From an uncultured Oscillospiraceae bacterium (lineage in GTDB: Bacteria > Bacillota > Clostridia > Oscillospirales > Oscillospiraceae), in assembly GCA_950075865.1 (NCBI GenBank), contig CATMVA010000006.1, positions 1 through 64,000 of the forward strand: a stretch of 64,000 bases of DNA, given 5' to 3'. A model generated the notes under the pieces. It was not told the origin of the DNA. It did no database searches and saw only the letters and a list, made by a program, of their open reading frames with translations. Position numbers and translations under genes: made by a program. Shown here piece after piece: positions 1 through 14,189 of this stretch; within the stretch, counting starts at the first letter, position 1; the number at the start of each line of letters is the position of its first letter.

Positions 1-2
1 AC

Positions 3-143: not shown

Positions 144-159
144 CCCGCCGAAAACAAGA

Positions 160-206
160 AAAGCCCTCCAGGGGCCGCGCAAGCGGCTCCCGGAGGGATT
201 TTCTTC
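160..206. terminator. Bidirectional intrinsic terminator
   Basis: CCCTCC at 164-169 pairs with GGAGGG at 192-197, and GGGGCCGC at 171-178 pairs with GCGGCTCC at 183-190 around a GCAA tetraloop. The stem is flanked by AAAA on the left and TTTT on the right. It lies between convergent genes, so it can stop transcription from both sides. The 190 bases from 207 to 397 hold nothing convincing apart from a 12-base CG alternation at 403-414. Confidence 0.75.
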
Positions 207-397
207 TGCCTATTCGCAAATTGTTTTTCCAGCGCTGATTTTTGGCGCGGGGAAGTCGTCGCAGTATGCGCATATTGGCCCCGGACCAAAATTCAAAATC
301 AACGCCATTCTCCGGCGTCCGCTGGCCGTCCGACCTGTCCCCGGCGGAGGCCGGAAAATGGCCAGCCGCCGAATCCCAAAACCGGCCCTTGCCACCT

Positions 398-1678
398 CTA
401 ATCGCGCGCGCGCGAGGCGCGGCCTAAAAGCTCGTCCGCCATCGGCACTTCTTCCAGGGCTTCCCCCAGCCGGTCCAGCGCCTTGTCATGCTGCCAGCGG
501 GCGGTCCTGTCCGGTACGCCGTTTGAGGCGGCAATCCGCGCCCAACTGTACTTATCCCGGTACTTGGCAAAAATCAGTTTTTTGTACTCACCTTTCAGCA
601 CGTCCAAACAGCCCCGAATGTTCTCCCGGTCCACGATCAGCACATGGTCCCGGACGGCGATTTCCTCCAGCCTGTTCCAGACATTCCGGGCATCCACCCG
701 CGCGGCCAGCTCTTCCGTCGGCTTTCCCGGCGTGGAGCTATGCGGCGCGCCGTCGTAGGCTGTACCGCGCAGGCCGTCGTATTCGTCCTCCAGCTCCTCC
801 CGTTCGACGGCCAATTCCGCCCGCATTGCCGGAATCCCGAAATAGTACGCTATTACCCTTTTCACGTCCTTGCGCCGCATAGCTCCCGCCTCCATGTCAG
901 TTAGTTTTTCCCCTCTCCACGGCCCGCGCCATTCCCGCCGCCGCTGGCCGGTCCTTTTCTGTGCGGCCCATGTGCTTTCCCTGGCTCTGTACTGCCGGAA
1001 GCGGGCGGCGGTTGCCCGTTCCACGGCCTGCCGCTTTTCCCGCGCCTCTTTCCGGTCCCACGCCGTTGTGAAGTCCCAGCCGCGCCGCGCTCTCTTCGGA
1101 TTGATGTCCGCATTAAAGACTTTCGCCATTGCCTCAATAACCTCTTCCAGCGGATAAAAGGTTATTTCTGCAAATACACCGGCGGCTTCCGCAAGCTCTC
1201 GTGCTTCTTCCTCCGCCAGCTCCACCAATTCCGCAGATATAAAATCTTCGATGTACTTCTTTACGCGCGCCTGTATACCCTCCAGGACTTCTTTATCCAC
1301 CGTCTGCCAGTCTTGTTGACGCCTGTTGTGCTGTTCCTGCCCGACCATAACGATTTTTTCCCCGCTCGGCGCTGTCCCAGTCTTGCGCAGCATTGGAACT
1401 CCGCAATCTCTGTCCTCCAGATTTGCAAAGTATCCGTATCCGTCTGGCAACGTCACATACCCGCCGCCTGGCACCTTCTGAATCCCGGACACGTCCATAG
1501 CCAGCCCGCCGCAGTATGGGCAGGTGATTGTGAAGGGTGACGGCTTATGGTTCGCCCCAAACTCTTCAACGCCCTTTTCCAGATACATAGGCCAGCTCTT
1601 CCCGCATTGCTCACAGCGGTAGATCATTCTCCCGTGAATCAGCGGCTGGCGCGTGTGCCGCTCTGTTCTTTCTTCCAC
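398..1678 (-). CDS. Zinc-ribbon protein with C-terminal ArpU/sigma-like phage regulator domain
   Basis: 426 aa from a GTG start. The N-terminus has a two-CxxC zinc ribbon (YRCEQCGKSW near 20, then CPYCGG near 54). A charged middle region follows. The last ~150 residues look like the ArpU/phage sigma-like family: a long helix, then a C-terminal helix-turn-helix (YKKLIFAKYRDKYSWARIA, residues about 370-390) as in late-gene activators. That part alone matches the usual length of an ArpU-type protein and starts near MRRKDVKRV, so this may be a fusion of two normally separate genes. It is the last gene of the leftward operon, 10 bp after parB. Domain assignments rest on pattern only. Confidence 0.65.
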   Translation of the reverse strand: MEERTERHTRQPLIHGRMIYRCEQCGKSWPMYLEKGVEEFGANHKPSPFTITCPYCGGLAMDVSGIQKVPGGGYVTLPDGYGYFANLEDRDCGVPMLRKTGTAPSGEKIVMVGQEQHNRRQQDWQTVDKEVLEGIQARVKKYIEDFISAELVELAEEEARELAEAAGVFAEITFYPLEEVIEAMAKVFNADINPKRARRGWDFTTAWDRKEAREKRQAVERATAARFRQYRARESTWAAQKRTGQRRREWRGPWRGEKLTDMEAGAMRRKDVKRVIAYYFGIPAMRAELAVEREELEDEYDGLRGTAYDGAPHSSTPGKPTEELAARVDARNVWNRLEEIAVRDHVLIVDRENIRGCLDVLKGEYKKLIFAKYRDKYSWARIAASNGVPDRTARWQHDKALDRLGEALEEVPMADELLGRASRARD

Positions 1679-1688
1679 CGCCGCGCCC

Positions 1689-2855
1689 TCACTTCCGTAG
1701 GGCGGCGATTGCCACTGTCAGCGCGTCGGCGCGCTCCGCCCATGTGTCCGCCGGCCCGGCTTCAATGCCAAGCATTTCCTCGCAGTACATTTGCAGGTCC
1801 TCCAGGATGTACGCGGCCCGGCGCTGGTGCATCGGCTCTTTTTCCGGCTCCGCCGAATCAAGCTCAGGAGCGGGCGGCGCGGGGAAGTCCACGATTTTCC
1901 CAGCGTTTTCCGCTGAAAACAGCTCCTTCCACTCTACCTTTGGCGCGCCCTCTTCATCCTCCAGCTTTTCCGGCAGCACAGCCGCGCCGCTGTCCGGGCG
2001 GTCCTTTGCCCGCTCCAAAATCTCCTGCATCTGCTCCGGCGTTGGTGCTGGCCCCGTCTCTTCCGCCGTGACCATCGTTACCGGCGGTCCCGGCTGAACC
2101 GGCGGGCGCTCCCGCTCCACAGGCTTCCACTTGCGCACGTCCTCCAGCGTGACCGGCCCACGCTTTCCCCAGCACTCCGCCGCCGCCTTTTCCTGCACAT
2201 CCGCCGAAAGGGTAGACAGTTCATAGGCCACGGAAATACCGATCTTCCCTTCCTCCAGCCAAGTTTTGAACGCGGGAATCAGGTGCTTTTCGATGCTGTC
2301 ATACCGGCCCACCTGTGCGGGCGTGGTCCCCAACTGCTCGGCAATGAGCTTGCGCGTCTCTCCTGGGATTTTCTCAAACTGCCGCTTCCGCTCCAGGAGC
2401 GCCCGCAGGCGCGTTGCCTCCTGCACCTTGTCCCAGTCGGTTTTCTCCCGCTGGCCGTTGGTGGTGATAAGCAAGATTGCCTCGTCAATAGCCCGCAGCT
2501 CGTCCGCCTCCGGCCCCTGCTCCCGTCCGGCATCCTCCACCATGCACGGCATCTTCCGGTAGGTTTCCTTGCCCTGCTTCACAAGCTGGAGAGAGGCCAG
2601 CCGCCGACGGTGGCCGGAAAGAAGTTTGTACTTCCCGCCGCCCAGCGGCACCACAAGCCCCGGCTGCTTCACACCGCCGGACAGCTCGATCAGCCCGGCC
2701 AGCTCTTCGATGTTCGACATGGAGTAAAAATTATCCTCTGACGGAACAAGGTCCTCCACGTCTATGTATTTCAGCACGGCGCGGCCCTCGTCCGCCTTGC
2801 TCCGCGCCTGGACCGTCCCCCGCCCCTTCTGCAAGCTCATAATGTCAAATCCCAC
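1689..2855 (-). CDS. parB: ParB/Spo0J-type partition protein
   Basis: 388 aa, GTG start with AGGAGGGG six bases upstream. The N-terminal ParB/RepB/Spo0J domain has the hallmark SGHRRRLAS (about residues 79-87, the box II GxRR-type motif). A helix-turn-helix region follows (LIAEQLGTTPAQVGRY, near 168-183). The C-terminal third is Pro/Glu-rich linker ending in a short helical segment. It should bind centromere-like sites and work with the ParA encoded two genes upstream, spreading on DNA to segregate an extrachromosomal form of the element. A ParAB pair in this operon is why a plasmid-like stage is suspected. Confidence 0.88.
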   Translation of the reverse strand: MGFDIMSLQKGRGTVQARSKADEGRAVLKYIDVEDLVPSEDNFYSMSNIEELAGLIELSGGVKQPGLVVPLGGGKYKLLSGHRRRLASLQLVKQGKETYRKMPCMVEDAGREQGPEADELRAIDEAILLITTNGQREKTDWDKVQEATRLRALLERKRQFEKIPGETRKLIAEQLGTTPAQVGRYDSIEKHLIPAFKTWLEEGKIGISVAYELSTLSADVQEKAAAECWGKRGPVTLEDVRKWKPVERERPPVQPGPPVTMVTAEETGPAPTPEQMQEILERAKDRPDSGAAVLPEKLEDEEGAPKVEWKELFSAENAGKIVDFPAPPAPELDSAEPEKEPMHQRRAAYILEDLQMYCEEMLGIEAGPADTWAERADALTVAIAALRK

Positions 2856-2858
2856 GGT

Positions 2859-3344
2859 TTACCCCTCCTGTTCTTTCAGCGCCGCTTCTGCCGCTTCCCT
2901 TGTGGTAAATATGGTTTTGCCGACTTCGCAAAATTTTACCGGGAACACTCTTCCGTTCTTAAACTGGATATGCAGGAACGGCTCTTTGCTTAAACCGATG
3001 AAAACGACTTCGCACGGATACGGTTTGTCTTTCTCCCGCAGATAGTCGCCACGCAGGGCGAAATTAGCGTACACTGTTCCGCCCAGCCTACACGGCAGCT
3101 CTGCCAGCCTGCCTTGAACCTTCGCCTGCAAAATGGGCAACGTCTCTTTTTTGAGTTCCTGGTTGCTTGCCTGCAACGCTGTGACTTCCTCCGGCGTCAG
3201 TCCTGTTTCTCTGTAGTCTTTTAGTTCATCCGTCCATGCGCACAGTTCATTTATGGCTTCTTCCTGCTGTCTCGCAATCCTGCACGCTTCGTCGAATTTT
3301 TCCGCTTCGTCGCAGGCGCGGTTAATAGCTTCCGCAACAGTCAA
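2859..3344 (-). CDS. Conserved phage/element protein inserted between parA and parB
   Basis: 161 aa. The best start is TTG at 3344: GGAGGGG lies five bases upstream and the parA stop is two bases away, while the upstream in-frame codon is GTA. The N-terminus is a helical region with ETGLTPEEV (about 49-57), a motif seen in many short clostridial phage proteins. The C-terminus holds a beta-rich part (CEVVFIGLSKEPFLHIQF). Function unknown. Its place inside the parAB pair suggests an accessory role in partition or merely co-expression. Confidence 0.7.
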   Translation of the reverse strand: MTVAEAINRACDEAEKFDEACRIARQQEEAINELCAWTDELKDYRETGLTPEEVTALQASNQELKKETLPILQAKVQGRLAELPCRLGGTVYANFALRGDYLREKDKPYPCEVVFIGLSKEPFLHIQFKNGRVFPVKFCEVGKTIFTTREAAEAALKEQEG

Positions 3345-3346
3345 CT

Positions 3347-4141
3347 TTACCCCTCCTTCCCCTTGCCCGAATCGGTCAAGGCCAGATACTCCGCCGTCAG
3401 CTTCTTGTACTGGATAGCGGCCCATGAGCGGGGCGCGAACACGCACAGCGGCATTTCCTCCAGCGTGCTTTCCGGCACCTTCGGATTGTAGCCGATAGCC
3501 GTCTGGAACACGGGGCAAATCCCGCTGTCCTCCAGCGACCGGCGGGCCTGCCAGAAGGTTTCCCGGTTCTGCCAGTGGGTAAAGAACGCGCCCCGCATGG
3601 TCAGCCCCGCATTGACGGCCTCCCGCACCCCGTCCACCTGCTCCACCAGGTCCAGCAGACCGGAAAATGAAAACTCGTCCGGGCGGATAGGGATAAGCAC
3701 GTCGTCCGCCGCCGCCAGCACGTTCAGCGTCACGGTATCCACCGACGGCCCATTGTCGATGATGCAGAAGTCGTAATCATTGCGCGCATGGTCCAGGGCG
3801 GAGAACAGCATCCGCGCCGTGTCGGTGTCCTTCCGGTCATACAGCGCCCGGTCCGCCGCGTACAGCTCCAGGTTAGACGTGATGATGTCAAGCCCCTTGC
3901 ATCCGGTCCGGCAAATGACCCGCTCCACGGCATCGGCGTCCAGCCCATCGGCCAGCAGAAGCGCCGCCGTCCCGTCCTGCTCCCCGTACACCCCGAAATA
4001 CCGGGACGCGCTGCCCTGCTTGTCCCCATCCACCAGCAGCACCTTCTTGTGGTGGTACACAGCCAGGATGTGGGCCATATTCGCCGCCGAAACGGTCTTG
4101 CCTACCCCGCCTTTCAGGTTGATAAAGGCCAGCGTTTTCAC
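3347..4141 (-). CDS. parA: ParA-family partition ATPase
   Basis: 264 aa. Start is GTG at 4141, sharing GTGA with the stop of the ASCH gene and preceded by GGGGGAG. Deviant Walker A KGGVGKT (residues 10-16), the A' region VDGDKQGSASRYFG (the usual DxDPQG has K for P), and Walker B DFCIIDNGPS are all present. This is the short ParA type without an N-terminal DNA-binding domain, so promoter control may fall to another protein. It pairs with the downstream ParB for segregation of the replicated element. Confidence 0.92.
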   Translation of the reverse strand: MKTLAFINLKGGVGKTVSAANMAHILAVYHHKKVLLVDGDKQGSASRYFGVYGEQDGTAALLLADGLDADAVERVICRTGCKGLDIITSNLELYAADRALYDRKDTDTARMLFSALDHARNDYDFCIIDNGPSVDTVTLNVLAAADDVLIPIRPDEFSFSGLLDLVEQVDGVREAVNAGLTMRGAFFTHWQNRETFWQARRSLEDSGICPVFQTAIGYNPKVPESTLEEMPLCVFAPRSWAAIQYKKLTAEYLALTDSGKGKEG

Positions 4142-4557
4142 GTTTTGTCTCCCCCTTCCCAGTTCCACCAGCCCTGTTTTCCCTTCGCCGGAATCGGCGT
4201 ATCGAACATGACCGGATTTTTCAGGACCCACGCCCAGCGCCCCGGCGAGTAGTCCCCCAGCGCCTTTTCTTGGGGCGTGAGGCTGTCCGCAACGTCCTCC
4301 ACGGGGACACAATCGACGATTTCCACGGTTCCGACGACTGCACCCAGCGGCAAGTCCACCGTTTTCCCTCCGACCGCTCCCAGCAGCTCCCAAAACGCCC
4401 TGTCGGAAAGTGCTCTTGTCGCCCTGTTCAGGCTCGCTTTCCCGGCATGGACGGCGACGCGGCCCCGAATGTTGGTCCTCCTGGGGCGCGTCTCATAGCA
4501 TTTCAGGCCCGCTACAATCGCGTATGCGTATGGCTGATGCACAGTAAATGCCCTCAT
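4138..4557 (-). CDS. ASCH domain (PUA-like) protein
   Basis: 139 aa. The N-terminus AFTVHQPYAYAIVAGLKCYETR is the typical ASCH opening, with the conserved (W/H)QPYA and K-x-x-E-x-R positions, followed by GRVAVHAGKA and LPLGAVVGTVEIVDC strands. ASCH folds bind RNA or modified nucleosides; some members hydrolyse N4-acetylcytidine. Here it overlaps its neighbours by 4 bp on both sides, inside a replication/partition operon. Substrate not known. Confidence 0.8.
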   Translation of the reverse strand: MRAFTVHQPYAYAIVAGLKCYETRPRRTNIRGRVAVHAGKASLNRATRALSDRAFWELLGAVGGKTVDLPLGAVVGTVEIVDCVPVEDVADSLTPQEKALGDYSPGRWAWVLKNPVMFDTPIPAKGKQGWWNWEGGDKT

Positions 4558-5213
4558 TCTCCCGCTCCTTCCCCGACTACTCCCCCGGTGCTTTCATCCA
4601 CCTGGAACAGCGGCCCCGTCTCCCGCTCCGGCACGCTTTCCTGTTTCGGAATGAGCGCCTTTTTCCGCATGGCGTCGCGGCACTGGCTTGTCAGGTCGTT
4701 CAGCGCCTCCATGAAGTCCTTGTCCGGCAAATCCATAGGCATAATGACCGCCTGAATCATCATCCCGATTTTTGCCACGATGTACCGCAGGTCCCCGTTC
4801 CTGCCCCGGCGCTCGTAAAGCCGCATATACTCCAGGCCGTCCAGCGGCAAAAGGTACTTTTCCTGAATGAACGTGACGCCCGCCGTCGTTTCCAGCGGCA
4901 GAAGGTCCCTCCCGTCATAGCGCACACACAGCTTCGGGTCGTCAAGCTGGCGCTCCAGCGGTGCCGTGTCCTCCCAGTTCATCGAATCTGGCACGTCGGC
5001 CCGGCGCATCACCAGCTTTTCGCGCTTCTTCTCGGTAATGTCGAACATGGCGCAGATGTTTTCCAGGTCCATGACCGGCAGACCCACCAGTGGATAGGCC
5101 GATTTCCCGTCGCCCAGCCATTGGCCCACGATTTCCCCGGCGGCGTCCCGCTCGTCCATCAGGTAGTAGCACCCGCCCGCATTGCAGATCGCGCCGACTT
5201 TCTTTATCCTCAC
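4554..5213 (-). CDS. Conserved hypothetical element protein
   Basis: 219 aa. GTG start at 5213 with AGGAGG eight bases upstream. It begins RIKKVGAICNAGGCYYLMDE and is a soluble alpha/beta protein without obvious catalytic motif; the last 30 residues are acidic and low-complexity. A competing ATG at 5217 in another frame reads a shadow. The family is known to me only as a conserved protein of clostridial mobile elements; no function can be given. Confidence 0.6.
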   Translation of the reverse strand: MRIKKVGAICNAGGCYYLMDERDAAGEIVGQWLGDGKSAYPLVGLPVMDLENICAMFDITEKKREKLVMRRADVPDSMNWEDTAPLERQLDDPKLCVRYDGRDLLPLETTAGVTFIQEKYLLPLDGLEYMRLYERRGRNGDLRYIVAKIGMMIQAVIMPMDLPDKDFMEALNDLTSQCRDAMRKKALIPKQESVPERETGPLFQVDESTGGVVGEGAGE

Positions 5214-5216
5214 GCA

Positions 5217-5750
5217 TTACACCTCCTGAATGTCGATATTGAAACGCTCCTTCATCAGCTTACGCTTCATGGCATACGTCTTTGTCTTGGTGGCACGGCT
5301 TTTCACGTCCTCCACCACCAGCGGCCAGTCCCATTCCATCTTGTCCGCAAATTCTCCTGGGTCCATTGGCTGCGTTGGCCAGCGCGGTTTTCTCCTGTAT
5401 GTAAAATCCGCCCTGTACCGGATAGCCCGCACCCGTCGGCCCTCGCCGTCGGTGTAGGCTTCCTGCAAGGTAAAGTCAACCTGCATCCGCAGGTCACGGA
5501 TTTGCCCGGCCCGCTCCAGCGTGGCCAGTTCGTCATACCGGCGAGCCTCCTTCTGGCTGTCAAACCGCAGGACGGCCCCGGATGGTGTCACCCGCTCGGT
5601 TGGCTTGTTGTGATACTTGGCAGGCTTCCCCGGTCCGGCGTCGGCAGGGCAGGGGAGAGGCAGGCGCTTCTTTTTCCGCTCCTGCTCCGCCCACTTCCGC
5701 AAAGCCTGGGCCTGATATGCGGGCGGCAGGTCCTTCACATCCACACCCAT
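5217..5750 (-). CDS. DUF1064 family, nuclease-like phage protein
   Basis: 177 aa, ATG 5750 with GGGAG eight bases upstream. It has the DUF1064 signature: KYHNKPTE (about 48-55), then FDSQKEARRYDEL, LRMQVDFTL, a YRADFTY strand, and VVEDVKSRATKTKTYAMKRKLM near the end. The E-x-K of VVEDVKS after a D in YRADF fits a PD-(D/E)xK nuclease core, as proposed for this family. Possible roles are resolving replication intermediates or recombination. Its first 190 bases overlap the preceding gene in another frame. Confidence 0.82.
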   Translation of the reverse strand: MGVDVKDLPPAYQAQALRKWAEQERKKKRLPLPCPADAGPGKPAKYHNKPTERVTPSGAVLRFDSQKEARRYDELATLERAGQIRDLRMQVDFTLQEAYTDGEGRRVRAIRYRADFTYRRKPRWPTQPMDPGEFADKMEWDWPLVVEDVKSRATKTKTYAMKRKLMKERFNIDIQEV

Positions 5751-5898
5751 TTGTTTTCTCCCTTCTCTCCAGCGCGCCAAAGCAGTCTACAATTACCCCT
5801 TTCGGCCTCCTACATCCGCTATGGATTCCGTCAAGGTCCGCATAGAGATAGTGAAACTCACATTCGTCGCACTTGCTTATCTGTGTTGGTATGTTCAC
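5560..5898 (-). CDS. Small Cys-rich element protein overlapping the DUF1064 gene
   Basis: 112 aa as read. GTG at 5898 shares GTGA with the previous stop and has GGAGG five bases upstream, so initiation is well supported. The convincing part is the first ~50 residues: CDECEFHYLYADLDGIHSGC then VIVDCFGALERREK, a four-cysteine, probably zinc-binding module common in clostridial phages. From about residue 50 it runs through the start of the DUF1064 gene in another frame and the sequence loses protein-like character. The native stop was therefore probably lost by a small indel near 5750. Confidence 0.55.
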   Translation of the reverse strand: MNIPTQISKCDECEFHYLYADLDGIHSGCRRPKGVIVDCFGALERREKTNGCGCEGPAARISGPGFAEVGGAGAEKEAPASPLPCRRRTGEACQVSQQANRAGDTIRGRPAV

Positions 5899-6089
5899 TT
5901 TTTCCTCCTGTTCCTCCGCTTCGACGCGCAGTAGTCCCGGATGATTTCGGCCTGCTCCCACTCGGTGGTATCGGCTACCAGTTTCCCATAGCTGACGCCC
6001 CGCCGCTTGGCTTCCGCTGCCAGTGCTGTCAGCGCCTCGCTCTCCGTGGCGCACCCGCCGCCGGGCAGCTCTACCATGCTCTTGCTCAT
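5895..6089 (-). CDS. Small helical protein downstream of Rep
   Basis: 64 aa. ATG 6089 shares ATGA with the rep stop. The sequence runs from a Gly-rich loop into ESEALTALAAEAKRRGVSYGKLVADTTEWE and a basic tail SKRRNRRKK. It resembles short HTH-like or DNA-associated element proteins. Function unknown; translational coupling to rep suggests co-regulation. Confidence 0.6.
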   Translation of the reverse strand: MSKSMVELPGGGCATESEALTALAAEAKRRGVSYGKLVADTTEWEQAEIIRDYCASKRRNRRKK

Positions 6090-6889
6090 TTCTTTGACCT
6101 CCGTTTCTGTTTCTGCTTTGGCTTGATAAACTTCCCATCTGCCCGGTAGAGGCGAACGAACAGATAGCACCCGCCGTTCACGTCATTGTGCCACGCCTCC
6201 GCCTTGGCGCACAGGTAGCCAGGGTAGAGCTTTTCAAACTGCGTGCTGTCCTGGATATTCTCGGCCATTTCCCGCGCTTTTTTCCCGGAAACGCGCCCGT
6301 CCCTTTCCTTTGGCCCTGGGTCAATAAGATTGCGCGACGCAAACCACGACTTTTTCCCAGCGGGAGACTTCACGACGTACCGGGCCAGCCCCTCCAGCCC
6401 CTCTTCGTTGAATTGCAAGCGGCGGGAGTTGGCGTACCCGTGGCCCTCCGTGTCTGTCCAGAGCTGTTCCAGCACGTCCCGGTCAATTCCCTTTTCGACT
6501 TCGATTGTGACATGGTGGTGGTATCGGCCTCCACGCTTCCCCCGCTCGGTGATAGCTATGTATTTCAGCACTCCCAGGCCGTGCTTCGCTATGTACCGCT
6601 TCAATCGGCGGATGAAGTTCTGCAAGTGCCGCTTTGCTTCCTCGTCGTTCTCCGGCTGCACTCGATAGGTCAGGTGGATTTCCAGTCCTTCCGGCGTGAA
6701 GTTTGCGTGAAGCAGGCGGGCCAGTTTCTCTTCCCGGTGCCGCTGGTTGAGCTTCTTTTGTGCATCGGTGGACGGCTTTCTTTTCTTGCGCTTCCTGCCG
6801 CTGTGCTTCCCCACTTCAAAGACGGGATAGAAAAACACGTCCAGGTATTCCCCACAGATGTACTTCTTTTCCCGGTACACTGTACGCAT
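6086..6889 (-). CDS. rep: Rolling-circle replication initiator (Rep_ORF2/G2P-like)
   Basis: 267 aa from ATG 6889, with GGAGGGGGG about ten bases upstream. The basic N-terminal half has KRKKRKPSTDAQKKLNQRHRE and the helical LARLLHANF typical of this family. The middle carries a HUH-like metal-binding motif, RYHHHVTIEVE (about residues 150-160), after ITERGKRGG. The candidate catalytic tyrosine is in LARYVVKSP (about 200-208), followed by a basic C-terminus. Such proteins nick one strand at an origin and start rolling-circle replication. No double-strand origin could be identified. It has its own candidate promoter, and a divergent small RNA starts just beside it. Confidence 0.8.
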   Translation of the reverse strand: MRTVYREKKYICGEYLDVFFYPVFEVGKHSGRKRKKRKPSTDAQKKLNQRHREEKLARLLHANFTPEGLEIHLTYRVQPENDEEAKRHLQNFIRRLKRYIAKHGLGVLKYIAITERGKRGGRYHHHVTIEVEKGIDRDVLEQLWTDTEGHGYANSRRLQFNEEGLEGLARYVVKSPAGKKSWFASRNLIDPGPKERDGRVSGKKAREMAENIQDSTQFEKLYPGYLCAKAEAWHNDVNGGCYLFVRLYRADGKFIKPKQKQKRRSKK

Positions 6890-6968
6890 ACCGATAGCGC
6901 CCCCCTCCGTGGTCGTTAAGTTACTATTCCATACAAGCCCGAAATGCGCCGCAGCGCATGGTTTCCCT

Positions 6969-6997
6969 CTTGTATGTGACCCCGGATTGTGGTACAA
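6969..6997 (-). promoter_or_regulatory. Candidate leftward promoter of rep
   Basis: Read on the minus strand: TTGTAC (6997-6992), 17 bases, TACAAG (6974-6969). It is weaker than, and occupies the same DNA as, the rightward promoter at 6970-6998. The two cannot be occupied together. Confidence 0.4.
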
Positions 6998-6998
6998 T
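6970..6998 (+). promoter_or_regulatory. Extended -10 promoter of a short rightward RNA
   Basis: TTGTAT at 6970-6975, 17-bp spacer, TACAAT at 6993-6998 preceded by TGG (extended -10). It points away from rep, against the direction of the operon, and no protein gene follows it before a terminator. Confidence 0.6.
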
Positions 6999-7004
6999 AT
7001 GTTG

Positions 7005-7076
7005 TGTCCAATCTATGCACCCTCCGGGGTGTGCCCTGCGCAAGCTGTCGGAAGCTCGCGCAGGGCATTTTCTTTT
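7005..7076 (+). ncRNA. Candidate small RNA divergent from rep
   Basis: Predicted start near 7005 from the promoter at 6970-6998. The ~70-nt transcript has a small hairpin (CACCC 7018-7022, UCCG loop, GGGTG 7027-7031) and then a strong intrinsic terminator: a ten-pair stem 7032-7041/7058-7067, extended by AGCT/AGCT, followed by TTTTCTTTT. No open frame with an RBS fits inside. It lies antisense to the leader that read-through operon mRNA would carry upstream of rep, a position like copy-control RNAs of rolling-circle plasmids. Existence is inferred from promoter plus terminator only. Confidence 0.5.
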
Positions 7077-7656
7077 ATCCGAACCGGCCATGCGGCCCCA
7101 TTCCCGTCGGCCAGCCCATCGGCATTTCAACGGACTTGAACAGCGGCGGCGGAAACGCTCCGCCCATCATCAGCAGCCCGGTCAGCCCTCCCATCGACGG
7201 CACCGGCCCCAGCGCCATTTTCAGCGTCATGCAGGCAACGGCATAGCTGGCGGGCGGAAGCTCCTTCAAAATATCCAGGATTTTGTGTACGGCTTCCTTT
7301 GTCATTTCCGCCTGCTCTTCCAAGGACGGCTCCTTCTTCTCGCCCTCCGTGTTCTCGGTGGTGGCCTCGCCGCCCTCCGTCTTGTCCCGGATGGAATCGA
7401 CGGCCCGCTGGGCGGCACCCGCGCCGCAGTCCCGGTCATACAGGCGCTCGTCGAGCTCGTCCCCGGACAGGTCCACTTTCAGTACCCGCCCGTGCAGGTA
7501 GTCAAACTGCGTGTACTTCTCCAGCAGTTCAGCGCAGCTCTCCACCGTCACGGTCCCTTCCTCGGCAGCGTGCATAAATCCAAGCCCCTGGACGTGGCTG
7601 TGGTCATACAGCGCTTTCAGGACCTTTGCCTTGTCTAACCCTTTGATGTCTACCAT
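7075..7656 (-). CDS. Conserved element protein upstream of rep
   Basis: 193 aa. The N-terminal ~85 residues (KALYDHSHVQGLGFMHA, FDYLHGRVLKVDLSGDELDERLYDRD) are a recognisable conserved module in Gram-positive phages and integrative elements. A charged linker and a Gly/Met/Pro-rich tail without obvious fold follow. Function unknown. The stop codon sits on the terminator of the rightward small RNA, so the two transcripts meet here. Confidence 0.65.
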   Translation of the reverse strand: MVDIKGLDKAKVLKALYDHSHVQGLGFMHAAEEGTVTVESCAELLEKYTQFDYLHGRVLKVDLSGDELDERLYDRDCGAGAAQRAVDSIRDKTEGGEATTENTEGEKKEPSLEEQAEMTKEAVHKILDILKELPPASYAVACMTLKMALGPVPSMGGLTGLLMMGGAFPPPLFKSVEMPMGWPTGMGPHGRFG

Positions 7657-7677
7657 TTTCTTTGCCTCACTTTTCGT

Positions 7678-7860
7678 TTATTTGGACCCGTTTACCGGGT
7701 ATCCATCATGTTTCCGGCCCTCGCCGTTCAGCCAGTGTAAATGCTTGCACCGCCGCATCACGCACCCCCGCCGCCGTATGTAAACATCGTTCATCAGCCG
7801 TTCATGCAGGGCGCACCAGGCCGTGGCATTGGCGGGCGGCTTGCTCCTTTTCTTCTTCAT
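7678..7860 (-). CDS. Small basic Cys/His protein
   Basis: 60 aa, ATG 7860 shares ATGA with the previous stop. It is basic, with two cysteines near the middle and several histidines (CVMRRCKHLHW), possibly metal-binding. Translational coupling is the main support for reality. Function unknown. Confidence 0.55.
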   Translation of the reverse strand: MKKKRSKPPANATAWCALHERLMNDVYIRRRGCVMRRCKHLHWLNGEGRKHDGYPVNGSK

Positions 7861-8426
7861 AGCAACAGCGATACCCCGTGCGCATTGTCAAGGCCCATCC
7901 TTTGAAGCTCTACCAACTGGGCATCCGTCAGCTTTTTCCCTTCTCCCATGCCGACGCTGTATCGCTCTCTTGCCTCCAGACCTTTGAATACCTTTGCCCA
8001 CCCAAGATTTTCAAGGTGGCGCTCCGGGTCGCGTATGTCCCGAATCTCTCCGACAATCCGCCTGGCCTCGCTGGTATGGCCTCCGTATCCGCACCCAAAG
8101 AATCGCCCATCTGGCGCAATCCATCCGAATTTTGTTTCCGGCTTCTGCTCTACCGGAACATCGACGGGCTTGTGTGCGTTCTCCGGCGCTGGCTCGGTCC
8201 CGTATATTTCCTCATTGATTTTTTGAAAATACACGTCAGAAAGCCCCTTGTGGAATTTTTTCCACACCCAACGGAAGAGTATCGGGGCGTAAGCTACCAT
8301 GACCGTTGCCGGGTGTACGCCTCTGTTCAAAAGCTGCTCCAGGAATCCGGCATACTGCTTTTCCGTGACGGCCTCCCAGCGTCGTTCTCCGGTCGGCTCT
8401 TCCCACATAAAGACATAGCTCGTCAT
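7857..8426 (-). CDS. Hypothetical element protein following the methyltransferase
   Basis: 189 aa from ATG 8426, which shares ATGA with the methyltransferase stop; a longer reading to 8540 is only the methyltransferase gene in another frame. It begins TSYVFMWEEPTGERRW. The C-terminal part has GWIAPDGRFFGCGYGGHTSEARRI and KLTDAQLVELQRMG, the kind of small module seen in phage-encoded proteins. No catalytic motif recognised. Confidence 0.6.
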   Translation of the reverse strand: MTSYVFMWEEPTGERRWEAVTEKQYAGFLEQLLNRGVHPATVMVAYAPILFRWVWKKFHKGLSDVYFQKINEEIYGTEPAPENAHKPVDVPVEQKPETKFGWIAPDGRFFGCGYGGHTSEARRIVGEIRDIRDPERHLENLGWAKVFKGLEARERYSVGMGEGKKLTDAQLVELQRMGLDNAHGVSLLL

Positions 8427-10018
8427 GCCGACACCGCTCTTTCCAGCTCTTCCATCGTCCGCAGTTTCTTCCCGCACCACTCCGGCAGGTTTGCCCGCAC
8501 GACGGCCTCTGCCATAGGCGGACACACCGCGTTCCCGCAACGGGCCACCTGTTTGCTCTTGCCATATGCGCGGCCTGTGTAGTCCCGGTCGATGATGTAG
8601 TCAGGCGGAAAGCCCATAGCGTTGTAAAGCTCCCTCGGCGTCAGCATCCGCAGGCCGATGTCCGCAACGAAATAGTCGGTCCCTCCCACGTCCAGCGTCA
8701 GCGCTTCGTTGTCTTTCAGGTCATACCCGCAGAAGCGATTCAACAGCGCCCGTATTTCCGGCCAGTGTCCCATATCCGTGCCCGGCTCGTAGGTCCGTAC
8801 TTCCGTGCGGATTTCTGCAAACTCCCCGGCGCTGGCCGTGATGGTTTGCAGCGGTTCCCGCTGGTCCTGGCCGATGTTCTGCCCCTTGAATTTGCAGATA
8901 TGTGTCAGCGTCATGGCTTCCCGGTCGTGGGAGGTCACGGTCCGCATCGGCTCCGCCACGTTCAGCGGATTCCCGTTCCCGTAATACTCCACCAGGTTTG
9001 CCGCAATCAATCCGTAGCGGTTGGAGGCGTCCACGGTCCGCAGCGTCTCCGCCACGCTCTGCCCCCGCACGTTCTCGCTCTGCTCCGTGTGGTATTGAAT
9101 CAGCGCCGGGGAAAGAAGGATCTGATTTCCCGCCGTGGTGACGGTATGGACCGGGGCCGTTACCTGACTTCCAACCGAATTGCAGGTGTTTGTCACAGTC
9201 CACGGCACGATGTATGGCGTCTTTGTTTTTATCACGAACTTATCCACTCCACGAATCACGCGGCGCATGGTGTTGTCCGCAAGCGGCCTTACTGCGTTGA
9301 CGCCATACCGGCTTTTGATGTCCTCCTTTGTGGCGAAAATGGAGTAGCACGGCTGGGTCCAGTCGATAACCTCCGCCGCCGCCCGCCACTTCGGCAGGCC
9401 GTCTGCACCGTCCTTGTCGTGCGTCCGCTCCGGCCATACGATAGGCCGTCCGTCACACCGCGCCACCAGGACAAAGCGCTTGCGGGTAGTCGGCGCTCCA
9501 TAGTCCGCCGCCACCAGCTCCCGGTGTTCGATGGTGTACCCCAGGTCTGATAACTGTTTCTTCCATCGCTGGAAGGTCTGGCCCGCCTTTTTCTTGACCG
9601 TCTTCCCCCGCCGGACCGGCCCCCAGGTCTGAAATTCCTCCACGTTTTCCAAGATAATCACGCGGGGGCGGACGGTCCCTGCCCAGCGCAGGACAATCCA
9701 CGCAAGGCCCCGGATATTCCGGTCCACCAGGGCCGCACCCTTCGCCTTGGAGAAGTGCTTGCAGTCCGGGGAGAACCAGGCCAGCCCCACCGGGCAGCCC
9801 TCGCACTCCTTCACCGGGTCCACATCCCACACGGAGGCTTGCAGGTGCTTTGTGTGCGGGTGATTGGTCTTGTGCATCAGAATAGCGTCCGGGTCGTGAT
9901 TGATTGCAATTTTGACAATCCGCCCGGTTGCCAGCTCCATCCCGGTTGACGCACCGCCGCCGCCCGCGAAATTGTCCACGATGATTTCTTCCATCGGACT
10001 AAGTTGAACCCCGCTCAA
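8423..10018 (-). CDS. dcm: DNA (cytosine-5-)-methyltransferase
   Basis: 531 aa. A TTG start at 10018 overlaps the previous TGA and has GGAGGG seven bases upstream; an ATG at 9994 has no comparable RBS. C5-MTase motifs in order: I (VDNFAGGGGASTG, about 14-26), IV with the catalytic Cys in SPDCKHFSKAKG (a phage-type variant of PPCQ), VI (ENVEEF), VIII (APTTRKRFVLVA) and X (CGNAVCPP). The target-recognition region contains repeated VHTVTT/MRTVTS-like units. No restriction gene is adjacent, so it is probably an orphan that protects the element or regulates it. Specificity cannot be read from the sequence. Confidence 0.92.
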   Translation of the reverse strand: MSGVQLSPMEEIIVDNFAGGGGASTGMELATGRIVKIAINHDPDAILMHKTNHPHTKHLQASVWDVDPVKECEGCPVGLAWFSPDCKHFSKAKGAALVDRNIRGLAWIVLRWAGTVRPRVIILENVEEFQTWGPVRRGKTVKKKAGQTFQRWKKQLSDLGYTIEHRELVAADYGAPTTRKRFVLVARCDGRPIVWPERTHDKDGADGLPKWRAAAEVIDWTQPCYSIFATKEDIKSRYGVNAVRPLADNTMRRVIRGVDKFVIKTKTPYIVPWTVTNTCNSVGSQVTAPVHTVTTAGNQILLSPALIQYHTEQSENVRGQSVAETLRTVDASNRYGLIAANLVEYYGNGNPLNVAEPMRTVTSHDREAMTLTHICKFKGQNIGQDQREPLQTITASAGEFAEIRTEVRTYEPGTDMGHWPEIRALLNRFCGYDLKDNEALTLDVGGTDYFVADIGLRMLTPRELYNAMGFPPDYIIDRDYTGRAYGKSKQVARCGNAVCPPMAEAVVRANLPEWCGKKLRTMEELERAVSA

Positions 10019-10302
10019 CGTCTCTCCCTCCAGTCCTTGATGATGTCCCGGACAGTTGTCGCCGCGCAGTAGTAGAACACGGGTAGAAGCAATGCCAGCG
10101 CCTCGCCGCCGACGGCGTAATACCCCCGCTCCCGCAGGGCGTAGGCTGCGCCCAGCTTATACAGCAGCACCCCGGCCACGGTCAGGAACGCATACCACGC
10201 CACGGTCCAGCCGTTCAGCCTGGCAAGCCACGTCCGCAGGCATACGCGCCGACGCTTCTGGGCTTGTCCCGCTCGGATTTTGATGTACTTGACCTTTTCC
10301 AC
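10015..10302 (-). CDS. Small two-helix membrane protein
   Basis: 95 aa. GTG at 10302 is chosen because GGGAG lies nine bases upstream; the frame extends to 10575 but that part is another gene's shadow. After a basic N-terminus come two hydrophobic segments (WYAFLTVAGVLLYKLGAAYA, about 36-55; LALLLPVFYYCAATTV, about 68-84) and a basic end. Holin-like size and topology are suggestive only, as the position among replication genes is unusual for a holin. Confidence 0.6.
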   Translation of the reverse strand: MEKVKYIKIRAGQAQKRRRVCLRTWLARLNGWTVAWYAFLTVAGVLLYKLGAAYALRERGYYAVGGEALALLLPVFYYCAATTVRDIIKDWRERR

Positions 10303-10306
10303 GGTT

Positions 10307-10579
10307 TCACTCTCCCTTCCGCCGCCGAAAGCCTCCCCTGCATGGGCAGGTCCGCCAATGCGGCACAAACCCCAGCGGCGTGTTGATTTTGGCCTCCCTG
10401 GTCTGCACTTCCGACCGCCTCGCCAGCCGCCCGGAAAGCACACCCTCTTCCTCGGTGTAGAAATGCTCGTCCCCGTCGCCCTCAATGACAAATTCCGGCT
10501 CCGGGTCCACCGGGATATACCGCCCTTTTTCTGTCTGCATCCAGTCGATTTCCCGGCCACAGTCTTTGCACGCACTCAC
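10307..10579 (-). CDS. Small zinc-finger-like protein
   Basis: 90 aa, GTG start with GGGAG nine bases upstream. It opens with CKDCGREIDWMQTEKGRYIP and closes with HWRTCPCRGG, giving C-x2-C and H-x3-C-x-C ligands separated by ~70 residues. This layout recurs in clostridial phage proteins as a treble-clef-like zinc module. Function unknown. Confidence 0.65.
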   Translation of the reverse strand: MSACKDCGREIDWMQTEKGRYIPVDPEPEFVIEGDGDEHFYTEEEGVLSGRLARRSEVQTREAKINTPLGFVPHWRTCPCRGGFRRRKGE

Positions 10580-10581
10580 GC

Positions 10582-10806
10582 TTAAAATCTCCCATCTCTT
10601 TTTGCCTTTATGGCCTCACGCAAAAACGATTTCAGGTGTTCCCCGTGCAGCGCCGTGTCGCTGCTGAACTCTGCGTAAATTTCCACATCGTCTACCGTTA
10701 GCGGCCAGCGTTCTACGATGTTCAATACTTGTGCAGCTTCCGGCGCAATCTTGACAAACTCCGTGTTCAGGCGTTTGATTAGCTCCTGGTTTTTAATTTC
10801 CTTCAC
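10582..10806 (-). CDS. Small hypothetical element protein
   Basis: 74 aa, mostly helical (LIKRLNTEFVKIAPEAAQVL), acidic centre, basic end. ATG at 10806 shares ATGA with the radical SAM gene. No family recognised. Confidence 0.55.
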   Translation of the reverse strand: MKEIKNQELIKRLNTEFVKIAPEAAQVLNIVERWPLTVDDVEIYAEFSSDTALHGEHLKSFLREAIKAKRDGRF

Positions 10807-11705
10807 CCCCTCTTCGGGTTATAATCCTTAAAATCGGGCACAGATTTGAAAATCAGGCGGTTGTTGCACCACCTCTGGAGCATCCGGATTTCCCTTGGCG
10901 CGTTTGGCTTATCGTAGATCATCACATACGGGTCAAACCCCATATCGCGCAGGGTATAAATCCGAAACAGATTTTCTTTCATCGTCGTGCCGTAATTGAC
11001 CAGACAATACACGGTTGCATATGCTCCATGAACTTTTCTGGAGGCGTAGGCCGCATATCGCCGCAGGCCGCGCATAACAACGCCGCTTTCCTCCATGTGG
11101 TCCCAGGCAAAATGAATATCCTTCACCCGTACCGCATTGATCGCCCGAATGTTTTCCGTCGTCAGCAGTCGGCAATCCAATCCCTGATTGAAATTTACAA
11201 ACGCGCCGCTGTCCGCAAGCTGTCCCAGCAGGTCCAGGTGTTCCTTGCAGGCCAGCAGGTTAGGGTCCAGCAGTTCAATGTGTTTCTGTCCACGCCACCA
11301 CTCGTTAAGGTCTGCCGCCTTTCGGGCAGCGCGGCCCTCCTTCTCCGCCACGACACAAAACGAACATCCGCGTGGGCATCCCCTCGTCAGGAATCCGTAA
11401 GCGGTTGAGCGGGTCAGTTCCGGGTACAGGGAATAGTCTGGGTAAATATGCTCCACCTCGTCCGGCAGGCGGTTATCCAAGCCGTATCCCGTCCCGCCCT
11501 TGATGATCTCGCGGGCGTTCAGCGGCTCCGGCACGTCCGGGGAATACGTCTCGTCAAAGACCTTGCTCATATACACCCGGTCGTACTCCCCGAATCCCCA
11601 CCACCATTCCACCGTGTCGCCCCGCGCCTTGTGCCAGGCGGATATTTTCATAAGCGCCAGGTTTGGGTAGTTATGGCTGTCCACGTCAATCAAGCCGATT
11701 GTCAT
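10803..11705 (-). CDS. Radical SAM protein of a mobile element
   Basis: 300 aa. The [4Fe-4S]-binding motif is a C-x3-C-x2-C in TRGCPRGCSFCVVAEKEGR (about residues 108-126). Before it is a Rossmann-like segment (GLIDVDSHNYPNLALMKISA) as in B12-binding-type radical SAM enzymes (COG1032-like), but without the DxHxxG cobalamin-binding motif. After it come LLDPNLLACKEHLDLL and FNQGLDCRLLT, typical of the TIM-barrel core. The reaction is unknown. Its place one to three genes from a DNA methyltransferase makes nucleotide or DNA modification a reasonable guess, no more. Confidence 0.82.
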   Translation of the reverse strand: MTIGLIDVDSHNYPNLALMKISAWHKARGDTVEWWWGFGEYDRVYMSKVFDETYSPDVPEPLNAREIIKGGTGYGLDNRLPDEVEHIYPDYSLYPELTRSTAYGFLTRGCPRGCSFCVVAEKEGRAARKAADLNEWWRGQKHIELLDPNLLACKEHLDLLGQLADSGAFVNFNQGLDCRLLTTENIRAINAVRVKDIHFAWDHMEESGVVMRGLRRYAAYASRKVHGAYATVYCLVNYGTTMKENLFRIYTLRDMGFDPYVMIYDKPNAPREIRMLQRWCNNRLIFKSVPDFKDYNPKRG

Positions 11706-11711
11706 AGGCGC

Positions 11712-12032
11712 TCACCCCCAAAAGAAGTAGTCCCGCCACAGTTCCCTATATGGCACTCCCGCGATTCTCGCCACTTTTGCCACGCTCCCGGCTTGATTTC
11801 GACAGATTCCTTTTGACATAAGCAGCTTGATAAACCGTTTCCGGCTCCCGCAGCGCCAGCGCTTCGGCGTCTTAAAATGCGCGGTAAACTCCACCGGCTC
11901 ACACACAAGACCGCCCGCCAGCTCTGCGACACCTCCTTCTCTCACCGTGATTTCCGGCAGCGGTTCCTTCCACGCAATCGGCACGCCATTCATGCACAAT
12001 GTGTACTCTTCGTTCTTATTTTCCGGCCCCAT
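11712..12032 (-). CDS. Hypothetical element protein
   Basis: 106 aa from ATG 12032, preferred over ATG 12041 because GGGAAAGG then lies nine bases upstream. It has an N-terminal acidic part and a basic C-terminus (FKTPKRWRCGSRKRFIKLLMSKG). The last 30 residues look like a short HTH-type tail (GSVAKVARIAGVPYRELWRD). Function unknown. Confidence 0.55.
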   Translation of the reverse strand: MGPENKNEEYTLCMNGVPIAWKEPLPEITVREGGVAELAGGLVCEPVEFTAHFKTPKRWRCGSRKRFIKLLMSKGICRNQAGSVAKVARIAGVPYRELWRDYFFWG

Positions 12033-12237
12033 TGTCCGCATCCTTTCCCTGCATCATCGGACACCATGCGGGAACATACGGGAGAAAGCGTCCATTTCCC
12101 ACAACGTACCCCTGGCGCGTCCCCGGCGCAAAACACCGCGCCCACAGCACGTCCTTTGGTCCCGGCTCATTCACGATATGGGCGCATCCCTCGCACGTCC
12201 TGGACCAGTCCGCGCCCGCGCTCACCGCTTGTCCCAT
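12016..12237 (-). CDS. Small four-cysteine element protein
   Basis: 73 aa. CEGCAHIVNEPG followed by ARCFAPG and a terminal PAWCP gives the C-x2-C...C...C layout of a common short protein in clostridial phages and conjugative elements. It overlaps the preceding gene end by 16 bp. Probably zinc-binding; role unknown. Confidence 0.6.
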   Translation of the reverse strand: MGQAVSAGADWSRTCEGCAHIVNEPGPKDVLWARCFAPGTRQGYVVGNGRFLPYVPAWCPMMQGKDADNGAGK

Positions 12238-12608
12238 ATCTGGTCAATGAGCTTGTGGCACGGCTCCGGCCCGCCGCCGAACACCCATTGCTCCAGCGCC
12301 TCTCGCTTCTCCTGCCGCTCGTACTTGTCCATCGTGTCATAGTCCGGCTCCAGCGTCTCCCGGTTGAAGTAGCCGACGCAAGTATGGCTGGCCGTAGGCA
12401 GGCCCGCATAGACCACGATGCACCCGCTCATGCCGATGTCCGGCTGGATGGAGACACAGAGGTTTCCCATCTGCATCCTGAAATACCCTTCCAGGTCCGT
12501 CCCCCGGTCCGGCTCCAGACCCTTTGCCGTCCCGAACTCCTGGACGGCCAGCGCCCGCGCCGTTTTCAGCGTCAGCCGGAATCCGCCGGGGTAACTCTTT
12601 TTAGGCAT
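12222..12608 (-). CDS. Hypothetical element protein
   Basis: 128 aa from ATG 12608; AAGGAGG lies ten bases upstream, inside the end of the preceding gene, and a TTG two codons earlier is too close to it. Sequence includes RLTLKTARALAVQEFG and a beta-rich centre (CVSIQPDIGMSGCIVVYAG). No family recognised. Confidence 0.6.
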   Translation of the reverse strand: MPKKSYPGGFRLTLKTARALAVQEFGTAKGLEPDRGTDLEGYFRMQMGNLCVSIQPDIGMSGCIVVYAGLPTASHTCVGYFNRETLEPDYDTMDKYERQEKREALEQWVFGGGPEPCHKLIDQIWDKR

Positions 12609-12610
12609 CC

Positions 12611-13055
12611 TCAATCCGCCTCCTTTTCAAATCTGATTTTCATTTGTGCGGGGTATAAATCGACTTCGGGCCGTCGCCGTCCAGTCCACCGCAGCCCCCC
12701 CAGCTTGCCCCACGCACTTCCAGCCAGAGGCCCGCAGGCTTGCGCCATTCTCGCTATCTAATATGTAGGTCACTATCCGCTTATAGCCCATAGCGCGGGC
12801 CGCTCTCCAAGAGGCGGCATACAGCATGGAACAGGCGTTACGGGTTCCATCGGTGCAAAGCCGGTTGACCTCCAGCGTCCACCCGTCGTCCAGGTGCCGG
12901 GCAACCGGACGGCCCACAATGGCGACGCCCACAATTTTCTTGCCGTCCGAAAGGCCAATAGAAAACTTGTGGCCCACTACTTTCCCGTGGTGCCGGTGGT
13001 TCTGCTCCACAAATGCGTTTGCCTCTTTTAGTGTCATAGGTACAATTTCAAGCAT
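12611..13055 (-). pseudogene. XF1762-family (GNAT-like) protein, frameshifted near its C-terminus
   Basis: The N-terminal ~115 residues are typical of the XF1762 family: EIVPMTLKEANAFVEQNHRHH, then VGHKFSIGLSDG, a GNAT-like fold of unknown substrate. At a run of seven G (plus-strand C 12695-12701) the frame slips. The uninterrupted reading ends at 12627 with an atypical tail. With six G the frame would continue as GGLRWTGRRPEVDLYP and QMKIRFEKEAD to a TGA at 12611-12613, which is the family's usual ending and lies two bases from the next gene's ATG. It is either a real single-base insertion or a homopolymer sequencing error. Confidence 0.75.
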
Positions 13056-13061
13056 GGTCTA

Positions 13062-13118
13062 TTCCTTTTCTCGTTTTCTTCTGCTATACTTGTCCCGGCG
13101 GCGTTGCCTCGCCGCCGG
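13062..13118 (+). promoter_or_regulatory. Promoter and 5' hairpin of the counter-oriented small gene
   Basis: Extended -10 TGCTATACT (TATACT 13085-13090) with a poor -35 TTCCTT at 13062-13067, 17 bp apart. Immediately downstream, a perfect nine-pair hairpin (CCGGCGGCG 13095-13103, six-base loop, CGCCGCCGG 13110-13118) would sit in the 5' UTR. It has no T tract and so is not a terminator. Confidence 0.45.
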
Positions 13119-13145
13119 AATCTACAGCAAAGGAGATTATTTTTT

Positions 13146-13361
13146 ATGGGTAGTCTTGTCCAATACACCGTTGATTTTGGCGATACTCCAAAAGCGGAGG
13201 TCCAACGCATTTGTGAACGGCTTGAAACCATTTCCTGGAATGGTGTTTTTCCCAATCTGGAGCGTCCGATTGTCCGCTTCTACCTCGAACAAGGGCAAGA
13301 GCTTGACGGCCTCATTACGTTCCCGCTGGGATGTCGTGTGCAGGTAGTCGGGAAAAAGTAA
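13146..13361 (+). CDS. Small protein encoded against the operon
   Basis: 71 aa. ATG 13146 with AAAGGAG ten bases upstream, and a candidate promoter at 13062-13090. The product (starting GSLVQYTVDFGDTPKAEV) reads like a compact alpha/beta protein. Its 3' end overlaps the end of the facing gene by 47 bp. The reverse frame here (81 codons) has no RBS and is less protein-like. It is the only rightward gene inside the ~14 kb leftward block. No family recognised. Confidence 0.55.
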   Translation: MGSLVQYTVDFGDTPKAEVQRICERLETISWNGVFPNLERPIVRFYLEQGQELDGLITFPLGCRVQVVGKK

Positions 13362-13785
13362 CGTTCTCGGCGTCCGGGTCATAGTCCATCACAACCCGGC
13401 ATTTCTTGTCCGGCAAAAGGACTTCAACCAATTCAGTCAGCAAGGCTTCAAGGTGGGTAAACGCTTTATCCCCTGTTGCCTTTACCCGCTCGTTCCTGGC
13501 TTCTTTGACCTTTCTGGCAAACTCTTCCATTGTCTTTCTGTAGCCGTCACTTTTCACCCACAGCACAATCCGATTCTGCCCCTCGCCCGTCTCCACCTGG
13601 TTCAGCCACCACAGCGGATTGTTCCGCTCCTTCTCATGCGGGCAGGCCCCGCAATCGCTCTTGCCGCAGCCCTCGCAGAACGCCTTGTAGAAATCCTTGT
13701 CCCACGGCCCGGTTGCAACTGAAAGCGCGGCCAAAAATTCGCCCAGCGCCTCCGGCGACACCGTGACCTTTTCAAAATTGGTCAT
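13315..13785 (-). CDS. Cys-rich hypothetical element protein
   Basis: 156 aa from ATG 13785 (AAAGGAG nine bases upstream; a GTG two codons earlier is too close to that site). Contains FCEGCGKSDCGACPHEKERNN near residue 35-55, a four-cysteine plus histidine cluster that should bind zinc, then a helical segment and a beta-rich acidic end. It starts translationally coupled to the first gene of the operon. Function unknown. Confidence 0.6.
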   Translation of the reverse strand: MTNFEKVTVSPEALGEFLAALSVATGPWDKDFYKAFCEGCGKSDCGACPHEKERNNPLWWLNQVETGEGQNRIVLWVKSDGYRKTMEEFARKVKEARNERVKATGDKAFTHLEALLTELVEVLLPDKKCRVVMDYDPDAENVTFSRLPAHDIPAGT

Positions 13786-13787
13786 GC

Positions 13788-14147: not shown

Positions 14148-14189
14148 TAATCTACTACTTCAGCCAGCGGCCATCGGCGAGAAATTTCC

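Follow-up and report, generated by a model that had tools for sequence, protein, structure and literature searches.

A conserved antisense promoter-terminator unit and a probable origin upstream of a phage-type rolling-circle rep gene

Introduction

Antisense control of copy number is well described for plasmids, and in phage lambda, the replication of which starts in the theta mode, the OOP RNA overlaps the coding end of cII. In plasmid pMV158, RNAII is a 48-nt RNA that is antisense to the copG-repB intergenic region, consists of a 5' tail and a terminator hairpin, and acts on translation (PMC4485353). Lambda pO reduces transcription from pR, but replication suffers when pO is lost (PMC3985674). 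Promoters are also involved in priming: most rolling-circle plasmids place the single-strand origin (sso) upstream of the double-strand origin (dso), and in many of them, host RNA polymerase recognises folded single-stranded DNA as a promoter (PMC4595007). In searches of open-licence PubMed Central papers, we found no description of an antisense control RNA for the rolling-circle initiators of PHROG 3584 or PF23343. The RNA predicted here upstream of such an initiator gene is of an already known kind; what differs is its placement upstream of the probable origin and the block with which it appears to travel.

Gene context of rep

The window, i.e. the entire 64,000-nt stretch analysed here, is the start of contig 6 of the assembly of an uncultured Oscillospiraceae bacterium (2.3 Mb in 37 contigs). 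The leftward ORFs from ~14063 to 398 include matches to ParA-like and ParB-like proteins, a cytosine methylase, a Mom-like protein, a radical SAM protein and phage transcription regulators, a gene row suggestive of early genes from a tailed phage or a phage-plasmid, truncated where the contig ends. The ParA-like and ParB-like genes (1689-4393) belong to the same leftward row as the rolling-circle rep, a hint that the element may live as a phage-plasmid. The Mom-like DNA modification protein (PHROG 1384) is encoded at 12627-13055 and the radical SAM protein (PHROG 9298) at 10803-11705, both in this early region.

The rep gene (6086-6889, minus strand) encodes an HUH-type initiator of 267 amino acids that matches PF23343 (REP_ORF2-G2P, 2e-12) and PHROG 3584 (replication initiation protein, 4.2e-68); residues H124, H126, Y171 and K174 are invariant among 11 aligned sequences. 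The gene upstream of rep (7075-7656, minus strand, 193 amino acids) differs between relatives and has no Pfam match at 0.01. Its stop codon lies at 7075-7077, 185 nt from the rep start. The genome to which the window belongs contains a second rep relative (L030, G000:C3:119933-120424; 27% identical), the antisense promoter-terminator pair of which is weak (d=3.9).

A promoter and a terminator directed away from rep

Between the upstream gene and rep, the preliminary description had proposed a rightward promoter and an RNA of ~70 nt that ends in a strong hairpin with a T tract at the upstream stop codon, and this is borne out as a predicted unit. The sigma-A-type promoter consists of a TTGTAT -35 box (6970-6975, plus strand), a 17-nt spacer and an extended -10, TGG-TACAAT (6990-6998, plus strand; hexamer TACAAT at 6993-6998). 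With the start inferred from the -10, the predicted countertranscribed RNA (7004-7076, plus strand) would be ~67-73 nt long and would comprise a 5' tail, hairpin I (7017-7032, plus strand; core CACCC-UCCG-GGGUG), hairpin II and a T tract, the last two forming an intrinsic terminator (7033-7076, plus strand; d=29.7). For the strand 7005-7076, the predicted folding energy is -38.4 kcal/mol (z -5.8), which none of the 200 shuffles equalled. The T tract (7068-7076) runs into the positions opposite the upstream stop codon. By sequence, the terminator operates in the rightward direction only, and the transcripts that it stops would have to start in the short preceding stretch or run antisense through rep. 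The earlier proposal also held that leftward mRNA reading through into rep would contain the complement of this RNA before the gene, and this is supported.

A generic scan of positions 1-15000, with a promoter cut-off of 9 of 12, reported neither the promoter, which scores 8 of 12, nor the terminator, probably because its stem contains an A-C mismatch, and the scan as a whole found no more sites than in shuffles (4 promoters vs 4.7 and 17 terminators vs 17.0). A second scan, with a promoter score that credits the extended -10, the d'Aubenton-Carafa terminator score and cut-offs chosen after the site was known, detected 15 terminators with d above 10 on the two strands of the window and a sole promoter-terminator pair, the unit at 6970-7076; the relatives are the stronger test. 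The Rfam 15 covariance models gave no match in the window at gathering thresholds and none at E 10 for 6860-7120.

Conservation of the unit among rep relatives

Relatives of rep were drawn from viral contigs, reference genomes and the family and order of the window. The gene was present in 143 of the 144 fetched loci; 10 were too short, and 113 had non-redundant upstream DNA of at least 150 nt, a set that still includes some near-copies and in which the relatives are not independent of each other. The 500 nt upstream of rep in these 113 loci were searched, no origin motif being required, for a promoter with a score of 12 or higher and, 10-80 nt beyond it, a terminator with d>0. Such pairs are found antisense to rep in 36 of the 113 loci, compared with none on the sense strand and none in 378 shuffles; the units of L055 and L130, located beyond the 500 nt, fall outside this census. 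By Rep identity, the pair is present in 23 of the 27 loci at 58% or more, 2 of 23 at 44-58%, 3 of 32 at 35-44%, including the doubtful L067 (d=3.3), and 8 of 31 below 35%. Loss of the pair in close relatives that keep rep, named in the preliminary description as evidence that would count against its proposal, is therefore largely not seen at 58% identity or more. Among the misses in that band, L033 and L012 fail only the strict hairpin boundary, and L007 retains the homologous hairpin with a weaker T tract (tail CGTTCTTTTAC), the terminator that passes for this locus in the origin-anchored set below being a second hairpin further on. The viral contig L043 (rep 62% identical) has lost the promoter and the origin motif and kept the RNA body. 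The distance from the -10 to the hairpin is 31-44 nt in 35 of the 36 paired loci (35 in L131), the exception being L067 with 75. Pairs also occur in some relatives at 29-34% Rep identity, and distant promoters can be near consensus (TTGACA-17-TATAAT in L029, 29%; TTGACA-18-TATAAT in L096, 34%).

The origin motif described below is present within 600 nt of rep in 71 of the 143 loci; the removal of 2 short loci (L041, L069) and 19 near-copies left an origin-anchored set of 50. Terminators in this set are found antisense in 26 of the 50 loci, in none on the sense strand, and in 1 of 250 shuffles; in view of the absence of sense-strand terminators, the hairpin was rejected as the upstream gene's own terminator. 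Promoters scoring at least 12.5 are antisense in 27 loci and sense in 2, against 17 of 1000 shuffles, and at a score of at least 14, the respective numbers are 8, 0 and 0. Among loci whose Rep is at least 58% identical, the promoter is present in 22 of 22 (22 of 23 if the motif-less L043 is counted) and the terminator in 20 of 22, compared with 3 of 17 and 3 of 11 terminators in the two middle identity bands. On the tree, presence of the RNA, with L033 and L012 assigned by eye, L147 added and the doubtful L067 labelled by score, requires ~10 changes.

In sub-family 1, to which the window belongs, TTGTAT and TGTGGTACAATAT are found in all 12 rows. The -35 of sub-family 2 is TTGCA(A/T/C) in 10 of the 12 rows, the -10 is mostly TATAAT or TATTAT (TATCAT in L012, TATATT in L004), and AAGGTATRAGTAA is found at the start, save in L004. 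Several relatives have TGn-TATAAT at the -10, and L055 has TTGACA-17-TGA-TATAAT; L055, L129, L127, L130 and L075 share the plan in different sequence. When viral contigs were searched with the sub-family 1 promoter pattern, 12 stretches matched, 9 of these adjoining a sub-family 1 rep and 1 (L147) a 37%-identical rep, whereas L146 and L151, without rep, look like chance matches. The sub-family 2 pattern gave 17 matches, 3 beside rep and 14 without rep in the stretch examined, and the latter also look like chance. In L147 (~3870-4023), the sub-family 1 promoter core TGTGGTACAATATGTTGTGT is combined with a different hairpin and a nick-like motif, GGGCTTGTAATGGGTATTATC; the T run of this hairpin begins a few bases too far away for the terminator score, so that the match is by eye only.

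Among named phage, scaffold and plasmid records, 12 of the 27 matches were scored (MT835664 had too little upstream DNA). The pair is present in 4 of the 12, namely Latilactobacillus phages TMW 1.1381 P1 and TMW 1.1365 P1, Terrisporobacter phage TPDSL_ph2 and scaffold MT836660; the other 8, including Faecalibacterium phage Lelie, Butyrivibrio phages Arawn and Closwp03 and a Paraclostridium sordellii plasmid, lack it at these cut-offs. Two Latilactobacillus phages, TMW 1.46 P2 (L174) and TMW 1.1365 P2 (L179), are below the pair score; by eye, L174 has TTGACT-18-TATAAT plus a hairpin with a T run.

Upstream ORFs were surveyed in 31 loci, with the longest ORF ending near the RNA taken as the putative gene. 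The 29 loci with such an ORF yielded 14 protein clusters (BLASTP 1e-4). Because the upstream proteins differ between relatives, the RNA unit, the origin and rep appear to travel together. In most loci, the terminator lies at, inside or no more than ~20 nt from the end of the upstream ORF; that of L007 ends ~85 nt further from the terminator, and in L004, L037, L046 and L126, the called ORF extends into the terminator hairpin. The promoter, the terminator, the shape of the RNA, their conservation and their linkage to the origin-rep block are all read from the DNA itself.

Structure of the predicted RNA

In a set of 25 hand-picked loci, the predicted RNA is 62-77 nt long, with two hairpins in 24 of the 25. 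The 5' tail is unpaired at 0.74 vs 0.46 in shuffles, and accessibility of the target is barely higher than in shuffles (0.58 vs 0.49). The two hairpins of sub-family 1 have 93.9% paired cells and 8 double-changed cells, compared with a mean of 2.7 in shuffles, none of the 500 reaching this number; however, 6 of the 8 fall in one base pair, and the pair-type count is not raised (486 of 500 shuffles as high). Hairpin I has an A-U/G-C exchange, with 6 of the 12 rows in each state. Hairpin I alone is not significant by shuffles in sub-family 1 and, among 20 hand-picked loci, is better than shuffles only in some (mean z -1.44). Wobble pairs in the terminator hairpin of 31 hand-picked loci do not favour the RNA strand (30 vs 27) and are uninformative. 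In some members of sub-family 1, a possible pairing of a CCTCC in the hairpin loop with the ribosome site of rep was noticed by eye.

An inverted repeat frames the -10 and the start site, with one arm in the promoter spacer (6979-6991, plus strand) and the other in the transcribed region (7018-7030, plus strand), where it overlaps hairpin I. Given that one arm lies in the spacer and the other inside the RNA, this repeat can form only in the leftward mRNA, in single-stranded DNA or in a cruciform. Across 27 hand-picked loci, 14 of 540 shuffled spacers reach the native median. The first cross-family control was confounded by arms common to sub-families 1 and 2; in a regrouped control of 11 loci, 29 of 80 foreign pairings are at least as good as the weakest native one, a foreign partner suits L129 better than its own, and the native pairing of L127 is only slightly better. 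Clear support for the framing repeat is limited to sub-families 1 and 2, without L004, where it is absent, and to L055 and L130. The A-U to G-C change in hairpin I weakens the framing repeat; that hairpin I is kept while the repeat weakens suggests that the RNA's own fold matters.

A probable rolling-circle origin between the RNA and rep

The preliminary description had overlooked a probable rolling-circle nick site at 6920-6959 (minus strand), between the RNA unit and rep. The probable nick-site region of the dso, CTTGTATGGAATAGTAAC (6920-6937, minus strand; motif CTTGTATGG), is recognised from a motif upstream of rep in relatives, and a hairpin (6944-6959, minus strand; arms 6944-6949 and 6954-6959) lies 5' of it, with longer imperfect arms at 6930-6944 and 6962-6976. 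A hairpin followed by CT(T/C)GTA...ATnnTA(A/T)(C/G) is found no more than 450 nt upstream of rep in 67 of the 143 loci, for comparison with 1 of 143 on the opposite strand. The motif presumably resembles the sites at which pC194 and phiX174 are nicked. Where the promoter scores 12.5 or more (27 origin-anchored loci), ~21-37 nt separate the nick motif from the beginning of the -35, and the promoter is directed away from the motif. An 11-codon leader ORF within the origin hairpin (6924-6957, minus strand) was rejected as due to chance, its ATG being ACG in L006 and L007.

Comparison with known systems

As in pMV158 (PMC4485353), the predicted RNA is wholly complementary to the mRNA segment that separates a rolling-circle rep from the gene before it; an antisense promoter in this interval, an intrinsic terminator and a predicted length below 100 nt are all found. 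Unlike the 48-nt RNAII, the RNA here is ~62-77 nt and has an additional hairpin in most loci. It is placed far from the rep start, with the probable nick site in between; the gene upstream is variable and lacks a Pfam match, and Rep matches another family. The CopG repressor that stands upstream of repB in the pMV158 replicon family was not found by the Pfam search of the upstream gene. With its target far from rep, not immediately upstream of the rep translation signals, the RNA is likened to RNAII in its working and not filed as a member. As with lambda pO (PMC3985674), the promoter is convergent with the promoter of an initiator-feeding operon, next to an origin, in a temperate phage context. 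The RNA is short and terminated like OOP; unlike OOP, it stops in the window at the stop codon, which the T tract touches without overlap of the coding end, the upstream gene varies, and Rep is unrelated. The locus also resembles an sso read by RNA polymerase (PMC4595007) in its hairpins and its promoter upstream of the dso on the correct template strand, and differs from it in the near-consensus double-strand promoter, the intrinsic terminator and a -35 that is mostly not in a folded stem.

Alternative explanations

The origin between the RNA and rep gives rise to the main rival of a countertranscript, i.e. that the promoter serves the origin itself, through complementary-strand priming or origin activation. 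As an sso, the hairpins of the displaced strand would expose the promoter, RNA polymerase would make the complementary-strand primer, and the terminator would merely limit stray transcription. On the inferred dso and nicked strand, the promoter site is located as such an origin would be, upstream of the dso on the displaced strand; its position fits, since on the rep-sense strand it lies 5' of the probable nick, and so do its direction, transcribing that strand, and the plasmid arrangement cited above. Many relatives have the repeat framing the -10 and the start site, and the sense strand folds into several hairpins. In eight folded loci, the promoter spacer is mostly paired, and the -35 and the -10 are mostly unpaired. 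Against priming, the -35 in these folds, read by eye, mostly lies outside the framing stem (inside it in the RNA fold of L075), and of the -10, the loop contains the template strand alone (partly paired in L130). A near-consensus double-strand promoter with a terminator at a near-constant distance would be superfluous for a short primer, and the A-to-G change that keeps hairpin I converts a framing-repeat pair to T-G on the rightward strand and to A-C on the sense strand in 6 of the 12 rows. Priming appears unlikely, and origin activation somewhat less probable still. In the latter case, transcription away from the nick would leave negative supercoils, the origin hairpin would extrude, and Rep would nick, with the RNA as a by-product. 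The proximity of the outward-directed promoter to the nick motif agrees with this, and lambda pO acts on replication via transcription near the origin (PMC3985674), but the near-constant length of the RNA and hairpin I would be left unexplained.

The preliminary description had also placed a leftward rep promoter, TTGTAC-17-TACAAG (6969-6997, minus strand), in the same 30 bp and suggested that the two promoters exclude each other. TTGTA is indeed present in inverted orientation, but TTGTAC fits the consensus at 3 of 6 positions and TACAAG at 4 of 6, without the final T. This -10 is the mirror of the rightward -35, which in sub-family 1 is an arm of the longer origin hairpin, and it is not kept in sub-family 2, where 9 of the 12 rows have TGCAAG at the equivalent place. 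Leftward promoters reach the score of 12.5 in the same 2 of 50 relatives vs 27 rightward ones, under a score that requires the final T and therefore excludes TACAAG by construction. Since the leftward promoter is unsupported, so is exclusion of rep by overlapping promoters, which we consider highly improbable. A consensus scan revealed no leftward promoter site from rep to position 15000 either, so that transcription of rep most likely depends on read-through within the operon.

Proposed mechanism and implications

We consider it reasonably probable that a countertranscribed RNA restrains read-through expression of rep, in the manner of pMV158 RNAII or lambda OOP. The rightward promoter would give rise to a short, folded, intrinsically terminated RNA. 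As the interval from the RNA to rep shows no promoter for rep, the gene is most likely transcribed as part of the leftward operon, each mRNA of which would bear the full complement of the RNA between the upstream gene and rep. The RNA, if produced, would pair with this leader, and collision at the rightward promoter, which faces the oncoming polymerase, could assist it. Synthesis of Rep would be limited, increasingly as copies of the element rise, a lower Rep output being the least certain step. In the window, ~115 nt separate the complement from the rep start; the distance is 112-367 nt in the other paired loci (the doubtful L067, at 88 nt, set aside) and more than 500 nt in L055 and L130. 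This distance makes simple masking of the ribosome site unlikely and argues for RNase III cleavage, attenuation or polymerase collision as a better fit. The net effect on replication need not be restraint and could be positive, given that loss of lambda pO lowers replication.

More speculatively, and in our estimate improbably, the RNA, the origin and the initiator could constitute one mobile switch across a broad family of phage rolling-circle initiators, in which a single promoter would yield a Rep-limiting countertranscript and also couple polymerase occupancy to origin nicking or complementary-strand priming, via the start-site repeat and, in sub-family 1, the -35 box, which is at once part of the promoter and one arm of the hairpin at the nick site.

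If the RNA is made, it would offer a measurable handle on how these little-studied phages limit their own replication, and their origins would be easier to locate with the conserved RNA-origin-rep block as a guide.
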